Assembly (NCBI GenBank): GCA_006739055.1
Contig: AP019702.1
Coordinates: forward strand, 4,427,388-4,491,387
DNA from: Allostella vacuolata
Lineage (GTDB): Bacteria; Pseudomonadota; Alphaproteobacteria; ATCC43930; Allostellaceae
Length of the DNA stretch: 64,000 nucleotides
Direction of reading: 5' to 3'
Shown here: positions 1 through 10,466 of the stretch, in pieces
How the letters are laid out: each line of letters starts with the position of its first letter
How positions within the stretch are numbered: the first letter of the stretch is position 1
Made by a program: the position numbers and the translations under genes
The notes under the pieces: generated by a model
What the model saw: the letters and a program-made list of their open reading frames with translations, nothing else
The model's database searches: none
Told to the model about the DNA's origin: nothing

Positions 1-335
1 GGCACCGGGGCGGGGGCGACGCGGCCGACCGGCGCCGGCCGGGGGGCGGACGCGGGCAGCACGGCGCCGGCGGTGCGGGCGCCGGTGGCGGCGATCGTCA
101 CCACCCGGCCGCGGCCGCTGGCGCCGTCGATCCAGATCGCCCCCGCCGCCTCGAGGCGCTGCAGCGTCACCTTGACCTGGGGCACGGTCGCGTCCAGCAG
201 CTGGGCGAGCGCCGTGTTGGACGGGCACGGCCGGCCGGCGGCCGCGGCCTCGGCCAGCGCGGCCAGGAGGCGGGCGCGGGCATCGGCCCGGTAGCCGCGG
301 CGCGGCCGGTCGTCGGTCGAGGGCCAGGCGGTCAC
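1..335 (-). CDS. Winged-helix/HTH regulator-like protein, partial (runs off left edge)
   Basis: Reading leftward from a GTG at 335, the frame stays open to the window edge (about 111 residues). The first 90 residues look like a winged-helix DNA-binding domain: a helical segment (RARLLAALAEAAAAGRPCPS), then ALAQLLDATVPQVKVTLQRL, then EAAGAIWIDG and a GRGRVVTI wing. An Ala/Pro-rich tail follows. The GTG start overlaps the stop of the upstream MT-A70-like gene (332-334), the same coupling used throughout this leftward operon. The C-terminus is outside the window, so the full function is unknown. The role as a phage regulator is inferred from domain and position. Confidence 0.6.
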   Translation of the reverse strand, partial: MTAWPSTDDRPRRGYRADARARLLAALAEAAAAGRPCPSNTALAQLLDATVPQVKVTLQRLEAAGAIWIDGASGRGRVVTIAATGARTAGAVLPASAPRPAPVGRVAPAPV

Positions 336-829
336 GACGCCACCCATGTCCCGGCTTGGTCGCCCCAGCTGGTCCAGCCGGGGCGATCGGTGCGCGAGAA
401 CAGCTCGAGCCGGCGGCGACCCGGGGTCAGCGCCTCGACCATCGCGAAGACCGCGTCCGGCTTGCGCGAGTGCTCGCGGGCGAGGCCGTCCAGGCTGGCG
501 TCGGTCAGCGTCTCGACCAGGTTGGCGACGCTGCTGCCACGGATACCGGCGCCGGGCGCCAGGCCGATCAGCCAGGGCTCGCACACGCTGCGCACGACGT
601 AGCCCGGCCCCCAGCGCAGGCGGCCGGTCCGGGTCCGCTTGGCCCAGGCACCGCCCGTCACGGCCGGGAAGCCCCAGCCCCGCAGGATCTCGACATGGGC
701 GCCGGTCGCGACGAGCGGCCAGGTGCACCACAGCAGCACCGCGCCGCCCGGCGCCACCAGCTCGCCGACCGGCAGGGCCGCGATCGCCGGCAGGGACAGC
801 GGCAGGCCGCGGAAGGGCGAGGCGGTCAT
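332..829 (-). CDS. MT-A70-family DNA N6-adenine methyltransferase-like protein lacking the DPPW motif
   Basis: This 165-residue protein resembles phage MT-A70 proteins over their C-terminal two thirds. It has the conserved IAALPVGELVAPGGAVLLW core (about residues 15-33), a WAKRTRTGRLRWGPGYVVRS block, EPWLIG, REHSRKP and an ELFSRTDRPGWTSWGDQ end. Family members normally begin with a DPPW catalytic tetrapeptide about 20-30 residues before the ALPV segment. Here the ATG at 829 starts just before that point, and the upstream in-frame codons do not encode DPPW. The ATG overlaps the stop of the preceding HTH gene (ATGA), so the start is well placed. It is either a naturally short, possibly non-catalytic homologue or a truncated gene. 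Confidence 0.75.
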   Translation of the reverse strand: MTASPFRGLPLSLPAIAALPVGELVAPGGAVLLWCTWPLVATGAHVEILRGWGFPAVTGGAWAKRTRTGRLRWGPGYVVRSVCEPWLIGLAPGAGIRGSSVANLVETLTDASLDGLAREHSRKPDAVFAMVEALTPGRRRLELFSRTDRPGWTSWGDQAGTWVAS

Positions 830-1116
830 GGCGAGGCCTCGCCCGCCCCGGTCGGCCGGCAGCCGCGGGGGCGCAGGGGGACGCCCATGCGGAGGAGGAG
901 GCGGGCGCCGGAATCGCTGATGCCCAGCGCGTCGCCGACCTGGAGCAGGGTGCGGCCGCGGCGGTAGAGGTCGGCCGCCAGCTGGCGGCGAGCCAGGTCG
1001 GGGCGGGGGCCGTTGCTGCGCAGGTCCGGGTAGAGGCGGCGGATTGCGCGTGCCTCCTCGCGGATCTCGGCCAGGCGCCGGCGGGCCTCGTCCCGGGTGA
1101 GAGACGGGGCGGTCAT
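826..1116 (-). CDS. Small helix-turn-helix phage protein
   Basis: The 96-residue product begins MTAPSLTRDEARRRLAEIR. It has a charged helical N-terminal half and then an HTH-like segment, TLLQVGDALGISDSGARLLL (about residues 58-77), followed by RMGVPLRPRG. The ATG at 1116 overlaps the stop of the upstream gene and the stop overlaps the next start, so it is an internal gene of the leftward early operon. A longer frame upstream exists but only shadows the neighbour. The HTH suggests DNA binding; the target is unknown. Confidence 0.6.
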   Translation of the reverse strand: MTAPSLTRDEARRRLAEIREEARAIRRLYPDLRSNGPRPDLARRQLAADLYRRGRTLLQVGDALGISDSGARLLLRMGVPLRPRGCRPTGAGEASP

Positions 1117-1577
1117 CGGCGGCGCCTCGGGGCGGGGGTGGCGAGGTCGGCGATGCCGGCCTGGGTCAGGGCCTGGGACGCCGTGCCGACCTTGCGCAGG
1201 GCGGCGCGGATGCGGGCGCGCTCGCGGGGCGAGATGCGGCGGTCGCGGGTGGCGGCCTCCCACTCCTCGGCGGCATCGCCGAGGGCGACGTTGACCCGCA
1301 GCATGGCCGTCTCGAAGCCGATCGCCGGCGCCGGGGCGCCGGCCGCGGCCCGGGCGAGGACGGCCAGGAACGGCGGCGCGCCGCCGATCGCCGCCACGGC
1401 CTGGTCGAGGGCCTGGGCGCGGTGGAAGGGCAGCCGCTCCGGCCGGTCCGGGTCGGAGCAGGCATAGAGGTGGGCGGCGCTGACCCCGGCGACCGCGGCC
1501 GCGCGCTCGCGCCCCAGCAGGTCGAGGCAGCGCAGCAGCGCCTCCTCCTCGCTCTCCGGCTCGCGCAGCTTGGTCAT
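1113..1577 (-). CDS. Phage protein of unknown function, possibly a CII-like regulator
   Basis: The 154-residue protein is alpha-helix-rich. An N-terminal block (EEEALLRCLDLLGRERAAAV followed by AGVSAAHLYACSDPD) resembles the helical start of phage CII/CP76-type regulators. The middle is Ala-rich and the tail ends in four arginines. It starts at an ATG overlapping the preceding small ORF and ends in an ATGA overlap with the next gene. Its place in an operon repressed by the CI-like protein fits a regulator, but the family assignment is tentative. Confidence 0.6.
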   Translation of the reverse strand: MTKLREPESEEEALLRCLDLLGRERAAAVAGVSAAHLYACSDPDRPERLPFHRAQALDQAVAAIGGAPPFLAVLARAAAGAPAPAIGFETAMLRVNVALGDAAEEWEAATRDRRISPRERARIRAALRKVGTASQALTQAGIADLATPAPRRRR

Positions 1578-1732
1578 GGCCGGGCCTGCCCTAAACCGCC
1601 GGCGGCGATCAGGGGAGACGCGACGCCGGCGATCGACGAGGGTTGGCGCCGGCCGGCCTGGGGAGCGGCCCGGCCGGCGCCGCTGCCGGCGCCGGGGGTG
1701 CGGGAGCGCGGCAGGAGGGGGAGATCAGCCAT
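1574..1732 (-). CDS. Possible small phage ORF (52 aa)
   Basis: A 52-codon frame (MADLPLLPRSRTPGAGSGAG...) fills the gap between two operon genes. Its ATG at 1732 lies inside the end of the upstream gene, and its TGA overlaps the ATG at 1577. The Pro/Gly/Ala-rich sequence shows no recognisable domain. The overlaps at both ends are the only support; it may instead be untranslated spacer. Confidence 0.35.
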   Translation of the reverse strand: MADLPLLPRSRTPGAGSGAGRAAPQAGRRQPSSIAGVASPLIAAGGLGQARP

Positions 1733-1991
1733 CGTGGGACGCCTCGTCGCGCATGACGTCGGCCAGGGTGCGGCGCTGGACCGGGAACGGGCCGAAAGGC
1801 GCGGCCGCGGCCGGCGGGGCCGCGGCCAGCTCGACCAGGCGGCGGCCGAGGGCGGCGGCGACGTCGCGGCCGATCGGCACCAGCACCGAGAGGCTGGTCG
1901 CCTCGACCCGCAGGCAGACGCCGTCTGGATGCGGCTCCAGCGACAGGATGGTGGCGCCGAGCGTGGAGACGCCGAACACGTCGAGCGACAT
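1725..1991 (-). CDS. Hypothetical phage early protein
   Basis: The 88-residue protein (MSLDVFGVSTLGATILSLEP...) appears to be beta-rich at first, then has a helical segment DVAAALGRRLVELAA and a short Pro/Ala linker. I do not recognise a family. The ATG at 1991 overlaps the stop of the first operon gene (TGATG); a GTG three bases upstream is also possible. It is the second gene of the repressor-controlled leftward operon. Confidence 0.55.
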   Translation of the reverse strand: MSLDVFGVSTLGATILSLEPHPDGVCLRVEATSLSVLVPIGRDVAAALGRRLVELAAAPPAAAAPFGPFPVQRRTLADVMRDEASHDG

Positions 1992-2197
1992 CACGCGGCC
2001 TCGCTGGCACGTTCCGGGTCGGCCATCCAGGCGCGGACCCGGTCGACCGTCCGCACCGAGCAGATCCGGCCGCGGCGCACGTCGAAGACGAAGCGCGGGT
2101 CGTTGAGGGCGCGGATGCCAAACTGCGTCGCGCCCATCCCCTCCCGGGTCAGGTACGCTTCGATCTCGGCTAGGAACTGGTCCTGGAGGGTCGTCAT
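1991..2197 (-). CDS. First gene of leftward early operon; small Cro-like/HTH candidate
   Basis: The 68-residue protein (MTTLQDQFLAEIEAYLTREG...) has the compact helical organisation common to small phage DNA-binding proteins. MGATQFGIRALNDPRFVFDV looks like a turn-helix region, followed by RRGRICSVRTVDRVRAWM. It is the first gene after the leftward promoter and operators at 2208-2250, the position where a Cro-type antagonist of the CI repressor would be expected. No Shine-Dalgarno is evident, and the predicted transcript would have only a few leader bases. The Cro-like role is inference. Confidence 0.6.
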   Translation of the reverse strand: MTTLQDQFLAEIEAYLTREGMGATQFGIRALNDPRFVFDVRRGRICSVRTVDRVRAWMADPERASEAA

Positions 2198-2207
2198 GGG
2201 CGGCGAC

Positions 2208-2234
2208 CGTAATAGGATAAATCCTATATGGTCA
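2208..2234 (-). promoter_or_regulatory. Candidate leftward early promoter
   Basis: On the minus strand, TTGACC (2234-2229) is followed after 15 nt by TATTAC (2213-2208). The same TTG-box/15-nt/TATTAC arrangement occurs on the plus strand at 3732-3758 beside the other operator pair, which is the main support. The -35 lies between the two repressor sites and the -10 overlaps one, so repressor binding should occlude the promoter. The spacer is short for a sigma-70 promoter. Confidence 0.5.
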
Positions 2235-2250
2235 AGAGGGTAAATCCTAT
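2212..2250. promoter_or_regulatory. Left operator pair of the CI-like repressor
   Basis: Site 1 at 2212-2227 is ATAGGATAAATCCTAT, a palindrome with perfect 7-bp arms. Site 2 at 2235-2250 is AGAGGGTAAATCCTAT, the same motif with two changes in the left arm. The two sites start 23 bp apart, exactly as in the pair at 3717-3755. They lie between the divergent starts of the leftward operon and the repressor gene, so the repressor probably controls both. Confidence 0.85.
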
Positions 2251-2285
2251 TGGACGGCTCCTATTTCCCCCGCGACGGTGCGCGG

Positions 2286-3020
2286 ATGGTGCCCCCGTCC
2301 CATCCCGACCCCGTCCGCGCCCTCATCCTGCAGCTCGCGCAGGAGCGCGAGACGACGCTGTCGGAAATGTCCCGCGCGATCGGGAAAAATCACGCCTACC
2401 TGCAGCAATTCGTCCACCGCAGCAGCCCACGGAACCTGCCGGAGGAATCACGCCTGGCGCTCGCCGCGCGCTACGGGCTCGACCCGGAGGTGTTTCGCGG
2501 GTCGGACACCAAGTCGGGGCAGGCCCGGCGTTATCCGCCGAAGTCGCTGCCGCCGATCCCGGGCGAGGTGCTGGAGATGGATGCCCGCGGCGGCGCCGGC
2601 CTCGGCGCCGGCGGGATGCTGGTCAACGCCGTCGACCACAACGGCCGCGACGTCGTCGCCCGGGACGTGGCCGTGGCCACCTGGCGGCTGCCGTCCCCGT
2701 ATCTCAGCTACGTCCTGCGGGTGCGGGAAGAGGACGCGAAAATCGTCGAGGTCGTCGGCGACAGCATGGCGCCGACCCTGCTGCCCGGCGACCGGGTGAT
2801 CATCAACACCGCCGACCAGGTGCCGTCGCCGCCCGGGGTGTTCGCCCTGTGGGACGGGCTCGGCCTGGTGATCAAGCGGGTCGACCACAACGACGACGGC
2901 AGCGACCCGCCGCAGCTCACCATCAGCTCGGACAACCCGCTGCACTCGTCCTACCGGCGCACCGCCGACGAGGTGCGCATCATCGGGCGGATCGTCTGCC
3001 TGCTGGCCCGGCGGATGTAG
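2286..3020 (+). CDS. CI-like phage repressor: HTH plus S24 (LexA-type) peptidase domain
   Basis: The 244-residue protein has an N-terminal XRE-type HTH (about residues 10-60, with TLSEMSRAIGKNHAYLQQFV) and a C-terminal S24 domain. The S24 domain carries the nucleophile in VVGDSMAPTLLPGD (Ser160) and the general-base lysine in GLVIKRVD (Lys197). This is the layout of repressors that self-cleave after DNA damage. I prefer the ATG at 2286 because the upstream TTG at 2250 lies in the operator. Matching operator pairs on both sides of the gene support control of two diverging early transcripts. Lysogeny control is the expected role. Confidence 0.88.
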   Translation: MVPPSHPDPVRALILQLAQERETTLSEMSRAIGKNHAYLQQFVHRSSPRNLPEESRLALAARYGLDPEVFRGSDTKSGQARRYPPKSLPPIPGEVLEMDARGGAGLGAGGMLVNAVDHNGRDVVARDVAVATWRLPSPYLSYVLRVREEDAKIVEVVGDSMAPTLLPGDRVIINTADQVPSPPGVFALWDGLGLVIKRVDHNDDGSDPPQLTISSDNPLHSSYRRTADEVRIIGRIVCLLARRM

Positions 3021-3021
3021 C

Positions 3022-3327
3022 TCAGCGCACCACGAAGCCGCCGCCGTCCGTGCACAGCACCGAGGGCACGCGGTAGACGACGCCGGCCCACCGGCACGGC
3101 ACCAGGGGCGGGCCGTCCGACCTCGCCGGGGGCGCATCCTCGACGGCCCGCGCCCGGCTGATCTCCGCGTTCGGGCGGACCAGGCCCGCGCCGGAACCGC
3201 CCACCCGGCAGACCTTGTCGCGGGCGATGCAGGCACCGCCGCACGGCTTGCCCTTGCGGCAGTTCGCCGCCTCGGCCGGAGGCGCGGCCAGCGCCAGCAG
3301 CAACCCGGCCAGCACCAGGCGCACCAT
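3022..3327 (-). CDS. Small secreted Cys-rich phage protein
   Basis: The 101-residue protein starts with a signal peptide (MVRLVLAGLLLALAAPPAEA) and then a cysteine-rich segment, NCRKGKPCGGACIARDKVC, of a type often seen in phage-encoded secreted proteins. A second Cys pair is near the end (PLVPC..., PSVLC). The ATG overlaps the stop of the upstream gene (TGATG). The gene is convergent with the repressor, one base from its stop. Exported location is well supported; function is unknown and could relate to the lysogen's surface. Confidence 0.65.
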   Translation of the reverse strand: MVRLVLAGLLLALAAPPAEAANCRKGKPCGGACIARDKVCRVGGSGAGLVRPNAEISRARAVEDAPPARSDGPPLVPCRWAGVVYRVPSVLCTDGGGFVVR

Positions 3328-3656
3328 CACATCGCCCCTTCGCGGGCGGCACACTCCGCCCGCGTCGCCGGCGCCGGCGGGGAGCCTCCGACCTCGATCG
3401 TCTGGTGCTGCCCGGGGGCGAGGCCCGCCGTCGTGCGGTTGGCACCGCTCGTCACCGGCCGTGCGCCGGCGAAAAACGTGCACTCGACCCACACCGCGCG
3501 GAGCGGCTGCCCGCCGGCGTTGCGGACGGTGACCCACTGGGTCGGGATATCGCCGTAGCGATGATCGAGCGGGCCGAGCGTCAGCCGGATGTCCGCCGCG
3601 GCCGCGGGCATCACCGACGCGCCCGCGAGCAGCACGGCCAGGGCGAATCTGCGCAC
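3327..3656 (-). CDS. Small secreted protein of unknown function
   Basis: I place the start at a GTG (3656) because GGAGG lies five bases upstream (3662-3666) and the resulting N-terminus, MRRFALAVLLAGASVMPAAA, is a clean signal peptide. The mature part begins ADIRLTLGPLDHRYGD and looks like a small beta-sandwich (WVTVRNAGGQPLRAVWVECT). A longer frame back to 3710 would bury the signal sequence. It forms a two-gene unit with the next secreted protein, divergent from the rightward operon and downstream of the second operator pair. Confidence 0.6.
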   Translation of the reverse strand: MRRFALAVLLAGASVMPAAAADIRLTLGPLDHRYGDIPTQWVTVRNAGGQPLRAVWVECTFFAGARPVTSGANRTTAGLAPGQHQTIEVGGSPPAPATRAECAAREGAM

Positions 3657-3716
3657 GGCGACCTCCGGTTGCGTTTCCAGCGGCTCCACGATCGCATGCA
3701 TCCTCCTCACGACTGA

Positions 3717-3755
3717 ATAGGATTTACCCTATTGTCACGATAGGAAAAATCCTAT
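3717..3755. promoter_or_regulatory. Right operator pair of the CI-like repressor
   Basis: Site 3 at 3717-3732 is ATAGGATTTACCCTAT and site 4 at 3740-3755 is ATAGGAAAAATCCTAT. Both match the palindromes at 2212-2250, with the same 23-bp offset. They lie between the secreted-protein pair and the first gene of the rightward operon. Four near-identical sites flanking one repressor gene make the assignment strong without experiment. Confidence 0.85.
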
Positions 3756-3758
3756 TAC
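3732..3758 (+). promoter_or_regulatory. Candidate rightward early promoter
   Basis: TTGTCA (3732-3737) and TATTAC (3753-3758) are separated by 15 nt, and site 4 lies across the spacer and the edge of the -10. Transcription would begin about 20 bases before the gene at 3787, which has its own Shine-Dalgarno. The mirror-image layout of the leftward promoter supports it; the spacer length is not ideal. Confidence 0.5.
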
Positions 3759-3786
3759 CCTCCGCCTCGTCAAAAAGGAGGGCACC

Positions 3787-4101
3787 TTGACCTATCCATC
3801 CGCGGCCACGGCCGCGATCGACCCGGCCGGGCTGGCACCGCGGCCGCACATCCGCCTCGCGCGGCACATCACCGAGATCGCGGCCGGCAATGGCGGCTGC
3901 GTCACCGAGCGGGACCTCGCCCGCCGGGGCTGGAGCCGGCGGAGCATCGACCGCCACCTGCCGGCCGCCCGCGCCCTGCTGCCGGCCGAGATCCTGGCGA
4001 CCGAGCGGCCGGCCGGGCGGGTGGATGTGCCCGCCCGCCGCCGTCCCCTGCCACCCGCGAGCTGGCCCCAGCCGCGCACCGCCCGGAGGGCCGGCCGATG
4101 A
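3787..4101 (+). CDS. First gene of rightward early operon; possible DNA-binding protein
   Basis: The 104-residue protein uses a TTG start at 3787 preceded by AAGGAGGG. Residues 20-60 form a helical region with an HTH-like order (IRLARHITEIAAG, then VTERDLARRGWSRRSIDRHL). A Pro/Arg-rich tail follows. It is the first gene under the operator pair at 3717-3755 and overlaps the next start by four bases. It may be an early regulator; no specific family is recognised. Confidence 0.6.
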   Translation: MTYPSAATAAIDPAGLAPRPHIRLARHITEIAAGNGGCVTERDLARRGWSRRSIDRHLPAARALLPAEILATERPAGRVDVPARRRPLPPASWPQPRTARRAGR

Positions 4102-4316
4102 CCGCGCCGTCCGCGCTCCTGGGCGACATCCGCCCGACCCGGGCCGACCGCTCGATCCCGATCAAGAACCCCGCCCGCCGCCTGTTCCCGGCGTTCCGCC
4201 TGCCGGACACGGCGCCGAGCTTCCTGGCGGCGCTGGCCGGGGCGTTCGTGGGGGCGTTGCTCGGCCGCCGGGTGATGGCCGGCACCGTCGCCGCCGTGCG
4301 CTGGGGGTGGCTATGA
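4098..4316 (+). CDS. Small membrane protein
   Basis: The 72-residue protein has a basic N-terminal half and one likely transmembrane segment, SFLAALAGAFVGALLGRRVM (about residues 42-61). Start and stop both overlap neighbours by four bases. It is an early-operon gene of unknown function; a host-membrane role is only suggested by the segment. Confidence 0.5.
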   Translation: MTAPSALLGDIRPTRADRSIPIKNPARRLFPAFRLPDTAPSFLAALAGAFVGALLGRRVMAGTVAAVRWGWL

Positions 4317-4552
4317 CCGGCCCGATCGCGATCTCGACCGAGGCGATCGAGGTCGAGCTGGTCTATCGCGCCGCCGGCCCCGCGCACGAGCTGCGCGTGG
4401 CCGGCGAGCGCGGCCAGATCGTCGCCGGCATCCCGCGCGATGTCACGCTGAGCCGCAGCGACTGCACCGTCCTGGTGCGCGCCTGGCTCGCCAAGGGCCA
4501 GGCGCTGGAGTGGCAGGAGACGGTCCGCGCGCTGACCGGGGGGCGGCCATGA
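4313..4552 (+). CDS. Hypothetical phage protein (79 aa)
   Basis: The ATG at 4313 overlaps the preceding stop. The product (MTGPIAISTEAIEVELVYRA...) is predicted beta-rich and then helical (CTVLVRAWLAKGQALEW). No known domain is recognised. Four-base overlaps on both sides support translation. Confidence 0.5.
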   Translation: MTGPIAISTEAIEVELVYRAAGPAHELRVAGERGQIVAGIPRDVTLSRSDCTVLVRAWLAKGQALEWQETVRALTGGRP

Positions 4553-4887
4553 CGACCGTCGTCATCGAGCGTGTCCGCTCGCGCGTCTCCCCGGAGCGCG
4601 GCCGCCGCATCGCCGGCGCGATCGAGGAGGTGCTGGCCCACGTCTCGCCCGACGGGGCGTTCCTGGTCGGGGCGATCAACGAGCATGGCCGGACCATCTG
4701 CACCGCCAGCTCGTCCTCGATCCACGACCTGCTCTGCCTGGCCGACACCCTGCTCTCGATGGTCGAGGAGCGGGCCAGGGAACTCCCCCGCGATGCCCGC
4801 CGCCAGCTGCTGGAGCGCACCGGCCTATGCCGCGCGACCATCGGCCTGGGCGGACGTCCACCCAGCGAGGAGATGCACCATGCCTGA
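4549..4887 (+). CDS. Hypothetical phage protein (112 aa)
   Basis: The protein begins MTTVVIERVRSRVSPERGRR, with a helical region AGAIEEVLAHVS and a central SSSSIHDLLCLADTLLSMVE helix. It looks like a small globular domain, with no family recognised. ATG 4549 overlaps the upstream stop; the gene ends eight bases into the next one. Confidence 0.5.
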   Translation: MTTVVIERVRSRVSPERGRRIAGAIEEVLAHVSPDGAFLVGAINEHGRTICTASSSSIHDLLCLADTLLSMVEERARELPRDARRQLLERTGLCRATIGLGGRPPSEEMHHA

Positions 4888-5284
4888 CGCCCTCCCTCGT
4901 TTCGACGGCGCGGCCATCTGGGTCACGCTGTCGCCCGAGCACCAGGCGGCAATCGGCGCGGCGGTCCTGGAAATGGTCGCGGCTGAAAACGTCAACAACA
5001 ACCTCCGCGCGGATCGCGGCGAACTCGGGCCGCGATACCGCACCGTGAGCCCCTATCTGGACAGCGCCATTGCCTGCCATTTGCGCGACGCGATCGACGC
5101 CGCCGTGCCCGACGAGGCATGGGAATCCGATGGCCTCCCGGCCGTCCCCAGCCTGGCAGGGCCACTCTGCCGTGAATGTGGGTGCGGCGAACGCAATGCC
5201 TGCGTGACCGAAGCCGGCCCCTGCCACTGGTTCGAGCCGGACCTGTGCTCTGCGTGCGTGCCGGAGGAGGCGCCCCATGCCTGA
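4880..5284 (+). CDS. Phage protein with C-terminal zinc-ribbon-like Cys cluster
   Basis: The 134-residue protein has an acidic helical body and a C-terminal cysteine cluster starting CRECGCGERNACV, then a further Cys before HWFEPDLCSAC (about residues 98-127). Cys motifs with a WFEPDLCSAC-type end are common in small phage proteins and probably bind zinc. The start overlaps the previous gene by eight bases and the end overlaps the next by eight. Function is unknown. Confidence 0.6.
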   Translation: MPDALPRFDGAAIWVTLSPEHQAAIGAAVLEMVAAENVNNNLRADRGELGPRYRTVSPYLDSAIACHLRDAIDAAVPDEAWESDGLPAVPSLAGPLCRECGCGERNACVTEAGPCHWFEPDLCSACVPEEAPHA

Positions 5285-5504
5285 CCGCCCGTTCGAGCCG
5301 GGCGAGCTGGTGTGCGTCGTCGACCGGCGCGGGGTGCCGATCGGCGCCACCACCGTCGCCCGCGCGCTCCGCAGCCGCATCGTCACCAGCTGCGGCCGCC
5401 GCTGGACACTGGACGGCCGCCACCTGGCGCTGCGCTGGACCCCACCCCACCGCCGGCCCCGCCTCGCGATCCGCCGGCCCTACGCTTCGGAGACACGCCC
5501 GTGA
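5277..5504 (+). CDS. Hypothetical phage protein (75 aa)
   Basis: The short basic protein (MPDRPFEPGELVCVVDRRGV...) is probably beta-rich: PGELVCVVDRRGVPIGATTV resembles a small SH3-like barrel. An Arg/Pro-rich tail follows. It overlaps both neighbours. The fold suggestion is only from pattern. Confidence 0.45.
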   Translation: MPDRPFEPGELVCVVDRRGVPIGATTVARALRSRIVTSCGRRWTLDGRHLALRWTPPHRRPRLAIRRPYASETRP

Positions 5505-5911
5505 AGCTCACCATCGAGAGCACGCCGACCATCGTCGACCTCAACGGCGCCAGCGCCCGCCTGTGGCAGGGGCGGAGCGACACGGGCGTGCCCGTAACCG
5601 CCTACGTCACCGCGCTTGCCGTGCCCGAGGGCCGCCCGCCACAGGACTACGACGAGTTCGAGCGGGACTGCCTGCGCGTCATCGAGCGGCCGTCCTCCCC
5701 GCTGCAGGACGCGATCCTGGCCCACGCCGTCGCCATGGAGCTGACCGGCGAGCAGGTGGCCGACCAGCTCGCCCAGCTGCTGGCCGCAGTCATCGCCACC
5801 TTCGCCGAGGACCCGCCCGCGGCCCTCCGCTGGGCCGACGCCACCGGCGACAAGCTGCCCTGGCTGGTCGAAAGCAAGGTGGGGGAAGCGCAGAAGGATC
5901 GACTGCAATGA
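5501..5911 (+). CDS. Hypothetical phage protein (136 aa), GTG start
   Basis: A GTG at 5501 overlaps the preceding TGA, giving MKLTIESTPTIVDLNGASAR at the N-terminus, a beta-rich first half and a helical second half (QVADQLAQLLAAVIATFAED). Phage proteins that begin with this type of KLTIESTPTI segment are recurrent in alphaproteobacterial phages, but no function is assigned. Confidence 0.5.
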   Translation: MKLTIESTPTIVDLNGASARLWQGRSDTGVPVTAYVTALAVPEGRPPQDYDEFERDCLRVIERPSSPLQDAILAHAVAMELTGEQVADQLAQLLAAVIATFAEDPPAALRWADATGDKLPWLVESKVGEAQKDRLQ

Positions 5912-6267
5912 GCGTGATCGAGGACAACCCGGCGGAGCGGCGGGACGCTGACTGTCTCGCATTCGACCCGTTTGAGGGCGACCGCGACATCAACGTTCGT
6001 ACGATGCGCGACGGCTTCGTTGTCGTGCGGAAGAGCCACCGATGCCACATCTGCGCCGGCCCTATTGATCGCGGCAGTCGCGCTCGATCGCTGACGCAGC
6101 TGTGCGACGGCGAAATCGGGACATGGCGCTTCTGCGCTCTCTGCTGTGACGCCATGGCCCAGTCGCGGATCGACCACGGCACAGCGATAGATGCCCGGTA
6201 CAGGATCGGCGAGGAGGCGCGCGACCGCCTCGACCGCCTGGCCGATGGAGGCACCGATGGCCGGTAG
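5908..6267 (+). CDS. Phage protein with a four-Cys zinc finger-like motif
   Basis: The 119-residue product has CHIC (around residue 47) and a second cluster CALCC (around residue 77), separated by a basic strand-rich segment, as in a treble-clef or zinc ribbon. It precedes and overlaps ssb by 11 bases. A nucleic-acid role is plausible from position and zinc motif, but unproven. Confidence 0.5.
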   Translation: MSVIEDNPAERRDADCLAFDPFEGDRDINVRTMRDGFVVVRKSHRCHICAGPIDRGSRARSLTQLCDGEIGTWRFCALCCDAMAQSRIDHGTAIDARYRIGEEARDRLDRLADGGTDGR

Positions 6268-6736
6268 CCTCAACAAGGTGATGCTGATCGGCAACCTCGG
6301 CCGCGACCCGGAGGTGCGGTCGACCCAGGCGGGCAAGAAGGTGGTGACGCTCAACATCGCCACCAGCGAGACCTGGAAGGATCGCACCTCCGGCGAGCGG
6401 CAGGAGCGGACCGAGTGGCACCGCGTCGTCATCTTCAACGAGCGCCTGGCGGAGACGGCCGAGCAGTACCTGCGCAAGGGCGCCAAGGTCTATGTCGAGG
6501 GCGCGATGCAGACCCGCAAATGGACCGACCAGGCCGGCGTCGAGAAATACTCGACCGAGGTCGTGCTGCAGCAGTTCCGCGGCGAGCTGGCGATGCTCGA
6601 CGGCCGCCGCGACGGCAGCGGCCCGGCGCCCGACCCGGACGGCTACGGCCGCACCAGCACCCGCCCCGCCCAGCACGCCCCGCCGTCCGCCGATGGCGGC
6701 GGCCGCGGCGAATTCGACGACGAAATCCCGTTCTGA
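6257..6736 (+). CDS. ssb: Single-stranded DNA-binding protein
   Basis: The 159-residue protein is a typical bacterial/phage SSB. The OB-fold starts LNKVMLIGNLGRDPEVRS and includes ATSETWKD, EWHRVVIFNERLAE and YLRKGAKVYVEG. A Pro/Gly-rich linker follows, and the acidic tail DDEIPF is the tip that binds replication and repair proteins. I chose the ATG at 6257 (MAGSLNKV) from the family start. It sits in the rightward early operon, consistent with phage replication or recombination. Confidence 0.95.
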   Translation: MAGSLNKVMLIGNLGRDPEVRSTQAGKKVVTLNIATSETWKDRTSGERQERTEWHRVVIFNERLAETAEQYLRKGAKVYVEGAMQTRKWTDQAGVEKYSTEVVLQQFRGELAMLDGRRDGSGPAPDPDGYGRTSTRPAQHAPPSADGGGRGEFDDEIPF

Positions 6737-6746
6737 GGAGGCCGCC

Positions 6747-7859
6747 ATGGGCGACAAATCCGGCATCGAGTGGACCGACGCCACCTGGAACCCGGTCGTC
6801 GGCTGCAGCATCGTCAGCCCCGGCTGCACCCACTGTTACGCCATGGCCCAGGCCGCCCGGATCGAGCGGATGACGCCGGCGACGCACTACGCCGGCACCA
6901 CCCAGCCGAGCAAGGCCGGGCCGGTGTGGACCGGGCGCCTGGCGCTGGCGCCCGAGCACATCCTGACGGCGCCGCTGCGCTGGAAGCGGCCGCGGCGGAT
7001 CTTCGTCAACAGCATGGGGGATCTGTTCCACGAGGCGTTTCAGGACGACTGGATCGACCGCGTGTTCGCGGTAATGGCGCTGGCGCCGCAGCACACCTTC
7101 CAGGTCCTCACGAAGCGGGCCAGCAGGATGCGGGACTATATCGGGGCGTGCGTCGAAACCTTCCACGCCAGTCCCGACGGTATGGAGGAGCGGTTTGCCG
7201 ACCATTGCGGCGAGATCCTCAGCATGCCTACCAACGAAGCCGCCACCATCTTCGAGCGGGTGGATTGGCCCCTCAAGAACGTCTGGCTCGGCGTCTCGGC
7301 CGAGGACCAGGTGCGCGCCGATGAGCGGATTCCGCAGCTGCTGGCCACGCCGGCAGCCATCCGGTTCGTGAGCGCCGAGCCGCTGCTGGGGCCGATCGAC
7401 TTCACTCGGATCCGACGGTTCCCGACGGTCGACCGAGAGTACCTGCACGCACTGGCCGGCCGCTGCTGGACGGACCAGACCGGGCTCGCCAACCCGGACC
7501 CCGACTGGGCATTCCCGGGCTGCCGCTTCTCGGATGGCAGCCGCGGCCTCGACTGGATCATCGTCGGCGGCGAGAGCGGACCGAAGGCCCGGCCGATGCA
7601 CCCGGGCTGGGCCCGATCGATCCGCGACCAGTGCGCGGCTGCCGGGGTGCCGTTCTTCTTCAAGCAATGGGGGAGCTTCCGTCCCGCGATCGAGGGCGAG
7701 CAGGACTGGCTGATCGTCGATTCCAGTGGCGAGTGGGACCTGCCGGACCATGGCTGGCCGGAGGAGACTCAGGTCGCCATGGTCCAGCGCAACAAGCGCC
7801 GCGCCGACCGCCTCCTCGACGGCTGCACCCACGACGGCATGCCCGGGGGGCCGGCATGA
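6747..7859 (+). CDS. Phage Gp37/Gp68 family protein (DUF5131)
   Basis: The 370-residue protein carries the family signature at its start: KSGIEWTDATWNPVVGC, then a Cys cluster ending GCTHCYA. Further conserved blocks are RRIFVNSMGDLFH, FQVLTKR, NVWLGVSAE, RFVSAEPLLGPI, DWIIVGGESG and FFFKQWG. The Cys spacing resembles radical-SAM proteins, and the family is sometimes paired with three-Cys-motif partner proteins, but the biochemical role is not established. GAGG precedes the ATG at 6747. It is one of the clearest phage markers in the element. Confidence 0.9.
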   Translation: MGDKSGIEWTDATWNPVVGCSIVSPGCTHCYAMAQAARIERMTPATHYAGTTQPSKAGPVWTGRLALAPEHILTAPLRWKRPRRIFVNSMGDLFHEAFQDDWIDRVFAVMALAPQHTFQVLTKRASRMRDYIGACVETFHASPDGMEERFADHCGEILSMPTNEAATIFERVDWPLKNVWLGVSAEDQVRADERIPQLLATPAAIRFVSAEPLLGPIDFTRIRRFPTVDREYLHALAGRCWTDQTGLANPDPDWAFPGCRFSDGSRGLDWIIVGGESGPKARPMHPGWARSIRDQCAAAGVPFFFKQWGSFRPAIEGEQDWLIVDSSGEWDLPDHGWPEETQVAMVQRNKRRADRLLDGCTHDGMPGGPA

Positions 7860-8197
7860 TCCGTGTACACGGTTGCCTGGAGTGCGGCCGTACAGGGCCG
7901 CTGGACTCGCGGGCGGAGTTCTGCCGGCCGGCCTGCCGCACCGCCTGGAACAACCGCCGGAGGGTCCGCGGCGCGGAGCTGTATGACCTCTACATGGCCC
8001 ACCGGTTCGACCGGGCCGAGGCCCAGGCGCTGGGCGTGTTCCCCGCCGTCAACCGCCTGGCGTCGCTCTACCGGGAGGAGGATCAGGCGCGGCGCGAGGG
8101 CCGGCGATCGTGGCGGCAGCCGCGGGTGGTGCTGGCCGAGCAACCGCACCTGCGCGCCAGCCGCGGCCCGTCGCTGGCCGGAGGGCCGCGGCGATGA
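7856..8197 (+). CDS. Phage protein with N-terminal Cys4 zinc motif
   Basis: The 113-residue protein opens with two CxxC-like pairs (GCLECGRTG, then FCRPACRTAWNNRR). This resembles small zinc-finger proteins in which a plant-type FCR...C.. motif precedes a basic helix. The rest is helical and basic. The start overlaps the Gp37/Gp68 gene and the end overlaps the ASCH gene. Nucleic-acid binding is a reasonable guess. Confidence 0.55.
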   Translation: MIRVHGCLECGRTGPLDSRAEFCRPACRTAWNNRRRVRGAELYDLYMAHRFDRAEAQALGVFPAVNRLASLYREEDQARREGRRSWRQPRVVLAEQPHLRASRGPSLAGGPRR

Positions 8198-8565
8198 AGG
8201 CGCTCAGCATCATGCAGCCGTGGGCCTGGCTCATCATCCACCAGCACAAGCGGGTGGAGAACCGCACCTGGCACACCAGCCACCGCGGCCCGATCCTGAT
8301 CCACGCCGGGAAGACCATCGACCGCGAAGCCTACGAGTGGATCGCCGACAACTTCCCGGCGATCGCCGTCCCCGGCCCGGCGACGATCGCCCGCGGCGGC
8401 ATCGTCGGCCAGGCGACGATCATCGCCTGCGTCAACCGGCGGCCGGCCGACCCGTGGTTCTTCGGCCCCTGGGGGTTCGTCCTGACCGAGGCCCGGCCGC
8501 TGCCGTTCCGCCCGTACCGCGGCGCGCTCGGGATCTTCGACGTCGCGCTCGAGGGCGCGCCATGA
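8194..8565 (+). CDS. ASCH-domain protein
   Basis: The 123-residue protein begins MKALSIMQPWAWLIIHQHKR, with the ASCH hallmarks: PWAWLI near the start, KRVENRTW, GPILIHAGK and a final FRPYRGALGIFDV strand. ASCH domains bind RNA or nucleotides, and some phage members act on modified bases. No catalytic role can be assigned here. It is translationally coupled to both neighbours. Confidence 0.85.
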   Translation: MKALSIMQPWAWLIIHQHKRVENRTWHTSHRGPILIHAGKTIDREAYEWIADNFPAIAVPGPATIARGGIVGQATIIACVNRRPADPWFFGPWGFVLTEARPLPFRPYRGALGIFDVALEGAP

Positions 8566-8918
8566 CGGCGGCGACCCTCACGCCCGACCAGGTCGCCGCC
8601 CATTTCCAGGTCTCGTGGCCGACCGTCCGCCGCGCGCTGGCCCGGGCCGGCATCGAGCCGATTCGCTTCGGCCGCGCGATCCGGTTTACTGTCGCCGACC
8701 TGCCCCAGATCGAGGAGGCGCTGCGATGCCCCTTAGCCTCATCCCGCCCGGCGAGCGCAAGGGCAACACCTGGTGGCTCGTCCGAGGGCAGGTCAACGGA
8801 CGACGCGTTGAGGTCTCTACGCGCACACGAGACAAGGCGGCTGCTCAACGATTTGCGGTCGCCCTCGAGGCCAGGCTCCTCGCGCAAGGTGATCAGCCTG
8901 CCGCGGAGCCCGAGGTAA
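8562..8918 (+). CDS. Excisionase-like HTH protein, extensively overlapping the integrase
   Basis: The first 55 residues form an AlpA/excisionase-type HTH: TPDQVAAHFQVSWPTVRRAL, then GIEPIRFGRAIRFTVADLPQ. This is the classic 'helix-turn-helix then read the site' domain of Xis proteins next to integrases. The frame continues to a stop at 8918 as a Ser/Arg-rich tail (118 residues in all), so it overlaps the first 193 bases of the integrase in a different frame. The tail may be functional or simply a late stop. A role in directing excision is inferred. Confidence 0.65.
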   Translation: MTAATLTPDQVAAHFQVSWPTVRRALARAGIEPIRFGRAIRFTVADLPQIEEALRCPLASSRPASARATPGGSSEGRSTDDALRSLRAHETRRLLNDLRSPSRPGSSRKVISLPRSPR

Positions 8919-9805
8919 AGACCTGGGGCGAAGCAGCCGAGCGGTGGCTCAAGCGCAGCGTCTCGGCCGATGATCGGCGCTACGTCAATCGCATCGCGGA
9001 ACATCGATTCGCCCGTCGCCAGCTGCGCCGGATCATCCAGGCCGATATCGACCTGGCCGCCCGCGAGCTGTACCCCCGCCACACCGCCGAGACGATCAAC
9101 CGGCAGGCGTACACCCCGATCATCGCCGTCCTCAACTACGCCGCCGCCAACCACTGGTGCGAGCGCCGCGCCTGGAGCCGGCCGCGCATGCGCGAGCCGG
9201 AGACGCGGGCCGCCGCCCCCAACGCCGGCGAGCTGCTACTGGCCAAGGCCGAGGGCGCGCAGCGGCTGCTCATCCTGTGGCTGTGGCAGCACGGGACCCG
9301 GATCACCGACACGTTGCGCGTCGACTGGTCGCGGGTCGACCTCGCCCAGCGCAAGTACGAGATCTGGATCAACAAGACGCGGCGCTGGAAGACGCTGCCG
9401 ATCGACGACCAGGTGTGGATCGAACTGGCGAACACGCCCGAGGGCAGCCACACCGGCCGCCTCTTCCCCTGGCGCGACCGGCACGAGGTCTATGACTGGC
9501 TCGGCCCGCTGTCACGCCAGGCCGGTGTGGTCTTCACGCCCCACATGGCCCGGCACCGGCTGGGCAAGGATCTCAACGACGGCGGCGCCGGCCTGCGCAC
9601 CATCATGGGCGCGCTCGGCCACGAAAACCCGAAATCGTCCCTGCGCTACGTCGCCGAGGATATCGAGATCGTCCGCGAGGCCCAGGCCCGCCGCGCCCAG
9701 CGCACCCGCCCCCAGCCGGCCCCGGTGGGGGAGGAAGTGGGGGAAACGGCCCAAGCCGTTGATATTATTGAGGCGCCGCCAACATTGGTAAGGGTGGGGT
9801 CGTGA
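8726..9805 (+). CDS. Tyrosine recombinase/integrase
   Basis: The 359-residue protein is a phage-type tyrosine integrase. An N-terminal Arm/SAM-like part (PPGERKGNTWWLVRGQVNGR, then EVSTRTRDKAAAQRFA) is followed by the catalytic domain. The candidate catalytic residues are Arg192 (HGTRITDTLRVDW), His273 and Arg276 (HMARHR), His299 (ALGHENP) and Tyr308 (LRYV). The start at 8726 follows the family N-terminus. The C-terminal codons and the TGA stop (9803-9805) are inside the tRNA-Thr-derived attachment core, so integration supplies or preserves the end of the gene. Confidence 0.95.
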   Translation: MPLSLIPPGERKGNTWWLVRGQVNGRRVEVSTRTRDKAAAQRFAVALEARLLAQGDQPAAEPEVKTWGEAAERWLKRSVSADDRRYVNRIAEHRFARRQLRRIIQADIDLAARELYPRHTAETINRQAYTPIIAVLNYAAANHWCERRAWSRPRMREPETRAAAPNAGELLLAKAEGAQRLLILWLWQHGTRITDTLRVDWSRVDLAQRKYEIWINKTRRWKTLPIDDQVWIELANTPEGSHTGRLFPWRDRHEVYDWLGPLSRQAGVVFTPHMARHRLGKDLNDGGAGLRTIMGALGHENPKSSLRYVAEDIEIVREAQARRAQRTRPQPAPVGEEVGETAQAVDIIEAPPTLVRVGS

Positions 9806-9829
9806 TTTCGATTATCACCGGCGGCACCA
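9785..9829 (+). repeat. attR: 3' half of a tRNA-Thr(GGT) gene
   Basis: The segment reads as a tRNA from the anticodon loop to CCA. The loop TTGGTAA (9785-9791) has anticodon GGT. The anticodon-stem 3' strand GGGTG (9792-9796) is followed by a 5-nt variable loop GGGTC. The T-stem GTGAT/ATCAC (9802-9806/9814-9818) is perfect around the loop TTCGATT. Then come acceptor strand CGGCGGC, discriminator A and CCA (9827-9829). Upstream is integrase coding sequence, not a tRNA 5' half. This is what site-specific insertion into a tRNA 3' half leaves at the distal end. The intact tRNA should lie at the other end of the element, left of the window. Confidence 0.85.
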
Positions 9830-9964
9830 TTTTCTTCCCAGAAATGCTGGTGTTCTTGGCTCTCCGCCCGATCGGGCATGAGAGCGACTTCGGCACGAAT
9901 GCACCGGACGGGTCGCAAACCCGGCGATTGCGGCCGGCGACATCAGGTCAGCGACCGCCCCCCT

Positions 9965-10345
9965 TCAGGGCACCAGATCGTCGATCCCGACCTGGAGCGC
10001 GACCGCGATCGCCTTCAGGCTCGACACGGAGCCTTCCTTCTTCCCGGTCTCGATCTGGGTGATGTAGGCGCGCGACAGGCCGGCCTTCTCGCCAAGCTGG
10101 GCAGCCGTCAATCCGCGGTGGTCGCGATAGACCCGCACCGGGCTTTCTCCATCCAGGATGCGCTTCAGCAGTTCGATGGGCAGGCCTTCGGCATCCTCGC
10201 CCGCGGCGATCTTCCGGCTCCGCTCCCGGAGCACGGCGGCATCGGCGGCATCCTCTGCAACCTCGACCAGCCGCTGGTATTCCGCTTCGGGCAGAACGGC
10301 CAGCCGCTCGCCGCCAGCGGTCACGATGATCTGGACGTGGGACAT
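9965..10345 (-). CDS. XRE-family antitoxin of a RelE/ParE-type toxin-antitoxin system (orphan)
   Basis: The 126-residue protein has the two-part layout of a known antitoxin class. The N-terminal segment (VQIIVTAGGERLAVLPEAEY) is followed by a linker helix ending PIELLKRILDGESPVRVYRD, then an XRE HTH (LTAAQLGEKAGLSRAYITQI, ETGKKEGSV). Such antitoxins follow a RelE/ParE-like toxin gene, but here only the toxin's last residues remain directly upstream. GGGAGG lies between the remnant's stop and the ATG at 10345. It now probably acts as a stand-alone regulator or is decaying. It lies outside attR. Confidence 0.8.
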   Translation of the reverse strand: MSHVQIIVTAGGERLAVLPEAEYQRLVEVAEDAADAAVLRERSRKIAAGEDAEGLPIELLKRILDGESPVRVYRDHRGLTAAQLGEKAGLSRAYITQIETGKKEGSVSSLKAIAVALQVGIDDLVP

Positions 10346-10358
10346 GGTGCAGGCCTCC

Positions 10359-10466
10359 CTACCGGTAGACTTCGCCCCGCGGGGCAACGTTGTGGACGAT
10401 CAATGTCGCGCCGTTCGACATTCCATCCGAATCGGCAGCCGCGATAGCGTGTCGGCCCAGCGCCAT
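10359..10466 (-). pseudogene. C-terminal remnant of a RelE/ParE-like toxin gene
   Basis: Just upstream of the antitoxin, in the expected order, a frame ends GATLIVHNVAPRGEVYR and stops at 10359. This closely resembles the C-terminal strand and tail of RelE/ParE-type toxins that pair with this antitoxin class. Upstream the frame stays open but has no toxin-like sequence, and it soon runs antisense to the secreted-protein gene. The toxin therefore seems to have lost most of its N-terminal part. The identification rests on fewer than 20 residues. Confidence 0.45.

Follow-up and report, generated by a model that had tools for sequence, protein, structure and literature searches.

An integrase gene that reads into the tRNA-Thr(GGT)-derived attR core of its prophage and ends there

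At the right end of an integrated phage, the gene of a tyrosine recombinase (integrase) reads into the attR copy of a tRNA-Thr(GGT) gene and ends there at an in-frame TGA. The complete reading, to which we assign a probability of about 0.88, is that the locus is the attR of a prophage in tRNA-Thr(GGT), that the 3' end of int serves as P arm, that the TGA of the core terminates int, and that the resulting tail of the protein is passive. It draws on an exact repeat, a complete tRNA, a reading frame and its stop, paired repeats and an empty site, all of which can be read directly from the DNA. Lambda-type integration is known; the new element is the unusually deep overlap of gene and site. Within about 110 bp, protein code coincides with paired repeats that probably bind Int, with a probable bend site and with a tRNA 3' part. 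The window, i.e. the whole 64-kb stretch of DNA that was analysed (G000:C1:4427388-4491387), belongs to a single-contig genome of 5.83 Mb.

In the proposed mechanism, the lambda-type tyrosine integrase at the right end would recombine attP with tRNA-Thr(GGT), probably across the anticodon loop. At attL, the phage-borne tRNA 3' part would complete the host tRNA. The attR would then hold the host's displaced tRNA 3' part, into which the integrase reads. The last int codons would carry the paired Int arm-binding repeats and the IHF-like bend site, followed by the core, whose in-frame TGA would end the gene.

Table 1. Features at and near the right end of the prophage (positions in the window)
Feature	Position	Strand	Basis or remark
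Right end of the 43.6-kb prophage	1..9784	.	Domain matches; phage genes outside the window
S24 repressor	2250-3020		Prophage right end
SSB	6218-6736		Prophage right end
DUF5131	6744-7856		Prophage right end
ASCH	8149-8565		Prophage right end
Small HTH protein, probable excisionase	8562..8918	+	PF12728 HTH_17 just above cut-off; TIGR01764 'excise' below cut-off
Tyrosine recombinase (integrase) P0001, 359 aa, reads into attR	8726..9805	+	PF00589, E 1.3e-15; phrog_1 integrase, E 1.4e-27
Tandem GTGGGGGA-N4-GTGGGGGA, candidate P-arm Int-binding (arm-type) sites	9725..9744	+	Integrase codons 334-340
IHF-consensus match TATCAACGGCTTG, between P-arm repeats and core	9752..9764	-	Consensus scan
attR core, 47-bp exact copy of the tRNA-Thr(GGT) 3' part	9785..9831	+	Exact repeat, empty-site alignment
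Anticodon loop TTGGTAA, probable 7-bp strand-exchange region	9785..9791	+	Left edge of identity at 9785; general rule (PMC8371274)
Integrase stop TGA, 5' strand of the T-stem (9802-9806)	9803..9805	+	Reading frame

The attachment core and the occupied tRNA gene

The original prediction, made from the letters of the window, read positions 9785-9829 as the 3' half of a tRNA-Thr(GGT), running from the anticodon loop to CCA with perfect T-stem pairing. Base-by-base reading agrees with this. The anticodon loop is followed by the 3' strand of the anticodon stem, the variable loop and the T-stem GTGAT, which pairs perfectly with ATCAC (9814-9818) across the T-loop TTCGATT (9807-9813). The acceptor CGGCGGC, an A and the encoded CCA (9827-9829) complete the sequence. 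No tRNA was detected by ARAGORN in the window itself, so the attR copy is the 3' part only.

A matching intact tRNA-Thr(GGT) at the other end of the element, on which the prediction had been made to depend beforehand, was found to the left of the window. There, at G000:4393526-4393572, lies an exact 47-bp repeat of 9785-9831, with 43,646 bp separating the two copies. The left copy is part of a complete tRNA-Thr(GGT) (ARAGORN), except for its final two bases, as the identity runs 2 bp beyond CCA. On the 5' side, the identity breaks off at position 9784 (A in the window, C in the tRNA). A search of the genome with the tRNA-Thr(GGT) returned four places, namely the gene, attR, a tRNA-Arg(CCT) and a tRNA-Gly(GCC); a second tRNA-Thr(GGT) was not seen in this search.

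Between the repeats, PHROGs matches mark genes for terminase, portal, head protease, major head protein, tape measure and endolysin, all of these outside the window, as well as DNA methyltransferase and primase-like genes. Given these phage genes, the S24 repressor and the SSB, the element is by its gene content a tailed-phage-like prophage.

The empty site is provided by another genome of the same genus (G002). The joined left flank, core and right flank were aligned with its tRNA-Thr(GGT) locus at 87.8% over 205 bp, of which only a short stretch of 65 bp extends to the right of the core. The next conserved flank is 1.9 kb away in the present genome and 8.4 kb away in G002. Since the match of the joined flanks continues across the core and on into the right flank, it identifies 9785-9831 as attR, as had been predicted, and the locus as an occupied attB. 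The element has the marks of a tRNA-targeting prophage: the identity block is the 3' part of a tRNA, the intact tRNA stands at one end, and the empty site is found elsewhere. It is extremely improbable that 9785-9829 is an old tRNA fragment, unconnected with the integration of the element. The analysis yielded no support for such a fragment, and the exact 47-bp repeat at both ends, the phage genes in between and the empty site in G002 all speak against it.

In two further genomes of the genus (G001 and G003) the tRNA is identical and the alignment to the joined flanks ends at the core end; the G003 contig stops 73 bp past the tRNA. As judged from these alignments, the sequence beyond the tRNA is variable within the genus. 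The stretch from tRNA-Thr to the next conserved gene differs between G002 (L039, 5516-13893), G001 (L040, 6152-10306) and the present genome, which makes it a variable insertion spot, and a transposase-like ORF was seen by eye in the G002 stretch. The G001 sequence after tRNA-Thr(GGT) appears, also by eye, closer to the inside of the present attL than to the present right flank, and is perhaps the scar of a related element. An XRE-type HTH gene (window 9965-10387, minus strand) adjoins attR. A similar stretch in G001 (64.6% over 421 bp) has the opposite orientation and lies about 1 kb past tRNA-Thr.

The integrase and the P arm within its gene

The catalytic residues of tyrosine recombinases are R-K-H-R-(H/W)-Y. 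Across the integrase alignments R192, K217, H273, R276 and Y308 are invariant, and together with the PF00589 match above cut-off they place the protein in the tyrosine recombinases (phage integrase family). The arm-binding N-terminal domain of lambda-type integrases is built from three strands and a helix. The model of the N-terminal domain contains strands 4-6, 18-23 and 26-31 and a helix 37-53 (block mean pLDDT 82-95 over residues 1-50), and the best Foldseek matches of the integrase include the Tn1549 and lambda integrases. At the other end, residues 335-359 have a pLDDT below 50, i.e. the tail is predicted to be disordered, and a convincing counterpart of it is absent from 13 relatives. 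The start of the gene is overlapped by the HTH gene over 193 nt in a different frame.

The overlap between gene and attachment site extends beyond the core, with the candidate P-arm repeats and the IHF-like site both located in integrase codons. The tandem GTGGGGGA-N{1,5}-GTGGGGGA occurs at two places in the whole genome, one per att arm, and a control pattern has no match in the genome. The partner tandem in attL is located at G000:4393664-4393682, 93 nt beyond the tRNA end. Paired GTGGGGGA repeats, confined in this genome to the att arms, flank the core on both sides as putative arm-type sites. The IHF consensus WATCAANNNNTTR is matched once in the window, where 0.06 matches are expected, and the looser pattern WATCARNNNNTTR once in the 43.7-kb element. 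Integrases of the lambda type depend on a host factor that bends DNA, for example IHF, and the consensus match is a candidate site for one. The resulting order of putative P-arm repeats, bend site, core and P'-arm repeats is that of the lambda-type intasome. The 3' end of int would accordingly double as P arm of attP.

The G-rich tandems could instead be excisionase sites, a terminator element or a protein repeat, which we consider rather unlikely. A terminator-like stem at 9745-9760 (one found, 0.2 expected by chance) adjoins them; however, the candidate arm sites are present in each att arm and absent from the rest of the genome, and they are alike within the elements of relatives. Since their translation frame differs between elements, they are no protein repeats. 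Putative arm-site pairs that flank the core have also been described in mycobacteriophages (PMC10865867).

The stem has perfectly paired 6-bp arms (AACGGC-CCAA-GCCGTT); it falls within int and overlaps the IHF-like site. A promoter-like match is present on the minus strand at 9764-9791. Two further motifs were seen by eye: TTGATATTATTG between arm repeats and core (window 9759-9770), and, on the opposite side, TTGATATCATTG directly following the core (L002:1555-1566).

Relatives were collected by a scan with an alignment of three integrases (A3), which gave 31 viral loci. An alignment built from distant relatives was unsuitable for scanning because of its diversity, and the closer A3 took its place. 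With the integrase alone, no relatives were found in the genome and viral contig collections, and the phage collection held only distant ones, below 60% identity (6 and 11 records). In 13 of the 31 viral relatives, int is closely followed by the CCA-ended 3' part of a tRNA on the same strand, and in nine of these 13 this part has the TTGGTAA (Thr GGT) loop (L304 and L319 were read by eye). The case most like the present one is L303/L285, where the last int codons hold a GTGGGGGA-like pair, followed by the tRNA 3' part and then by a AGTGGGGGAA pair. L255, which comes from an alphaproteobacterial MAG, has a AGTGGGGGAA pair 90 bp beyond a tRNA-Thr(GGT), a spacing close to that of the present attL. 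The repeat is translated as VGEEVGE in the present element versus SGGRNGGK in L285, the frames being different.

The arms were compared in 12 elements, namely the present one and 11 of the 13 viral loci with a tRNA piece (the near-duplicates L304 and L326 were left out). Four loci with arm-like repeats by eye and no detected CCA-ended tRNA piece (L296, L306, L313 and L314) were not part of this comparison. On average the P arm scored 11.2 with the P' arm of its own element, 8.1 with the P' arms of other elements and 7.9 with the reverse complement of its own P' arm. None of 20,000 permutations gave a within-element match as high. In 6 of the 12 elements no other P' arm matches as well as the element's own, and in L323 the own arm is tied. 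For the present element, the P' arms of L303 (score 15) and L298 (13) fit the P arm better than its own P' arm does (11). In L299, L302 and L309 a sequence other than the G-rich pair gives the highest within-element score. The arms of relatives are alike within an element and the encoded peptide differs, which suggests a simple approach, from sequence only, to the detection of arm-type sites in the present integrase group and to attachment-site prediction. Among 16 relatives, four have a match to the IHF consensus, where simple shuffling leads one to expect 0.21. Its placement resembles the present one only in L309 and L319; it lies on the other side of the core in L300 and farther upstream in int in L303.

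A broad scan with AGTGGGGGAAN{0,4}AGTGGGGGAA returned 12 viral and 54 genome stretches (67 places), and the reversed control pattern returned 4 viral stretches versus the 12. In only 15 of the 66 loci is the motif close to an integrase (up to 600 bp away) or to a tRNA or tRNA piece ending in CCA (up to about 350 bp away), so the motif alone is no marker of attachment sites; most of the places are unexplained or due to chance. The looser GTGGGGGAN{2,5}GTGGGGGA matched in 11 of 372 class-sample genomes, the present one included. Seven single matches in other genera were read, among them L186 at an integrase start and L187 beside a tRNA-Ser.

The scans also turned up AGTGGGGGAA-CA-AGTGGGGGAA near the 5' end of a stop-to-stop integrase ORF in L229, L232, L237, L254, L256 and L269 (Pseudomonas, Pseudomonadales) and in L271 (Microbulbifer). 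Such a AGTGGGGGAA pair stands 55-57 bp from tRNA-Ser in L230 and L260 (Microbulbifer) and in L242 (Nioella). Three congeneric genomes, G303, G079 and G379, contain 12, 5 and 5 matches to the tandem pattern, and the listed places all read GTGGGGGAGGGTGGGGGA.

The stop codon inside the core

The integrase frame ends in LVRVGS-TGA, and these last six codons and the stop are part of the attachment core. The predicted position of the stop in the T-stem, with core-coded last residues, is thereby found in the reading frame, and the gene is whole at attR, in line with the claim that its coding end is intact in the integrated state. The further claim, that the gene end is kept in both states, is supported, with a qualification. 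As both core copies are identical, the gene end seen in attR should recur unchanged in attP. Tyrosine recombinases that target tRNA genes usually exchange strands at the anticodon loop (PMC8371274). If the exchange occurs there, the terminal codons and the stop found at attR are host DNA, and the preservation of the gene end then depends on the host tRNA. Among 29 tRNA-Thr(GGT) genes (18 distinct sequences, from 30 loci in the present and related genomes), 16 have an in-frame stop at the same codon and 13 do not. Without the core stop, the frame would extend by 213 codons in the present attR and by 34 in attP. Judged by these tRNA sequences, preservation is a property of the present host group and not of the design in general.

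With the first base of each as reference point, the distance from stop codon to anticodon loop is -18 nt in the present element and +16 to +81 nt in 19 others. The 20 elements comprise the present one, 13 viral and six cellular ones; the near-duplicate pairs L302/L304 and L320/L326 are counted twice, and L124, L149 and L160, with a tRNA piece 141-172 nt beyond the stop, are not among the 20. A stop this deep is the exception, and a stop before the core is usual in the integrase group. In L320 and L326 the stop codon overlaps an arm-like repeat (by eye), and in L309 it overlaps the IHF-consensus match. These overlaps suggest that the gene end shifts along the P arm and that in the present element it has moved on into the core.

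The stop in the core may alternatively be functional, with selection keeping the tail or the stop position. Examples would be an identical gene end in attR and attP, or a host-supplied stop that couples integrase expression to integration. We regard this as unlikely. The 19 other measured elements stop before the core, and 13 of the 29 tRNAs would give no stop, even though both core copies yield the same six residues and stop, a stop at this codon is shared by 16 of the 29 tRNA-Thr(GGT) genes (the present one included), and a host without it would leave the frame running on, as given above. The tail, moreover, is the part predicted to be disordered and without a convincing counterpart in the 13 relatives. 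Most likely, the extra C-terminal residues form a passive, disordered tail whose sequence is set by DNA function; the predicted disorder fits such a passive extension.

Less likely still is that the host tRNA gene supplies the integrase end at each integration, the T-stem of a new host deciding between an end after LVRVGS and a run-on. If true, the length of the integrase would report, and perhaps limit, which host the phage entered, the run-on being 213 codons in the present attR.

The idea that a stop in the core is common was examined and rejected. Among 115 distinct integrase ORFs (7 further loci had no integrase ORF), 10 have a CCA-ended tRNA piece close by on the same strand, and one of these 10, the present one, stops in the core. 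None of the 13 viral loci with a tRNA piece (of 31) does so. In the literature searched, which mostly did not cover subscription papers, no direct statement of an integrase stop inside a tRNA-derived attP core was found.

Comparison with known systems

The present case is an extreme of a known arrangement and not a new mechanism. Like phage lambda, the present element has a tyrosine recombinase and the 3' end of int beside attP; its putative arm-type Int sites around the core and its IHF-like site between arm and core would correspond to the lambda layout (described in part in PMC8371274). The present element differs from lambda in that the core is the 3' part of a tRNA and that the arm repeats, like the core, are inside the int reading frame; the identity of its integrase to lambda Int is about 13% in the Foldseek match.

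In archaeal suicidal integrases, integration splits the integrase gene, whereas the present gene is whole when integrated. The att site inside the integrase gene is a common trait of both, and tRNA targets are common in the archaeal systems (PMC8371274).

The P2-like Stenotrophomonas phage Smp131 also has a perfect repeat (46-nt) at the prophage ends and an attP directly downstream of int, with a pair of 11-bp direct repeats between them (PMC3931495). Unlike here, its attP is described as intergenic, and the account given there reports no such repeats on the far side of attP. Direct repeats around the core are known from the attP regions of oenophages as well (PMC8074189), and classes of integrase/tRNA orientation have been described (PMC2951348). 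The streptococcal IME_Spy2096_SNF2 similarly has its recombination site within the integrase gene, but it uses a serine integrase and targets a protein gene, snf2 (PMC5357655). Finally, in the integration-dependent immunity of mycobacteriophages the att core lies inside a phage coding sequence, and in some of them bacterial sequence supplies the end of the reading frame (PMC8092301). There, the gene is that of the repressor, which is truncated by integration, whereas the end of the present integrase is unchanged.
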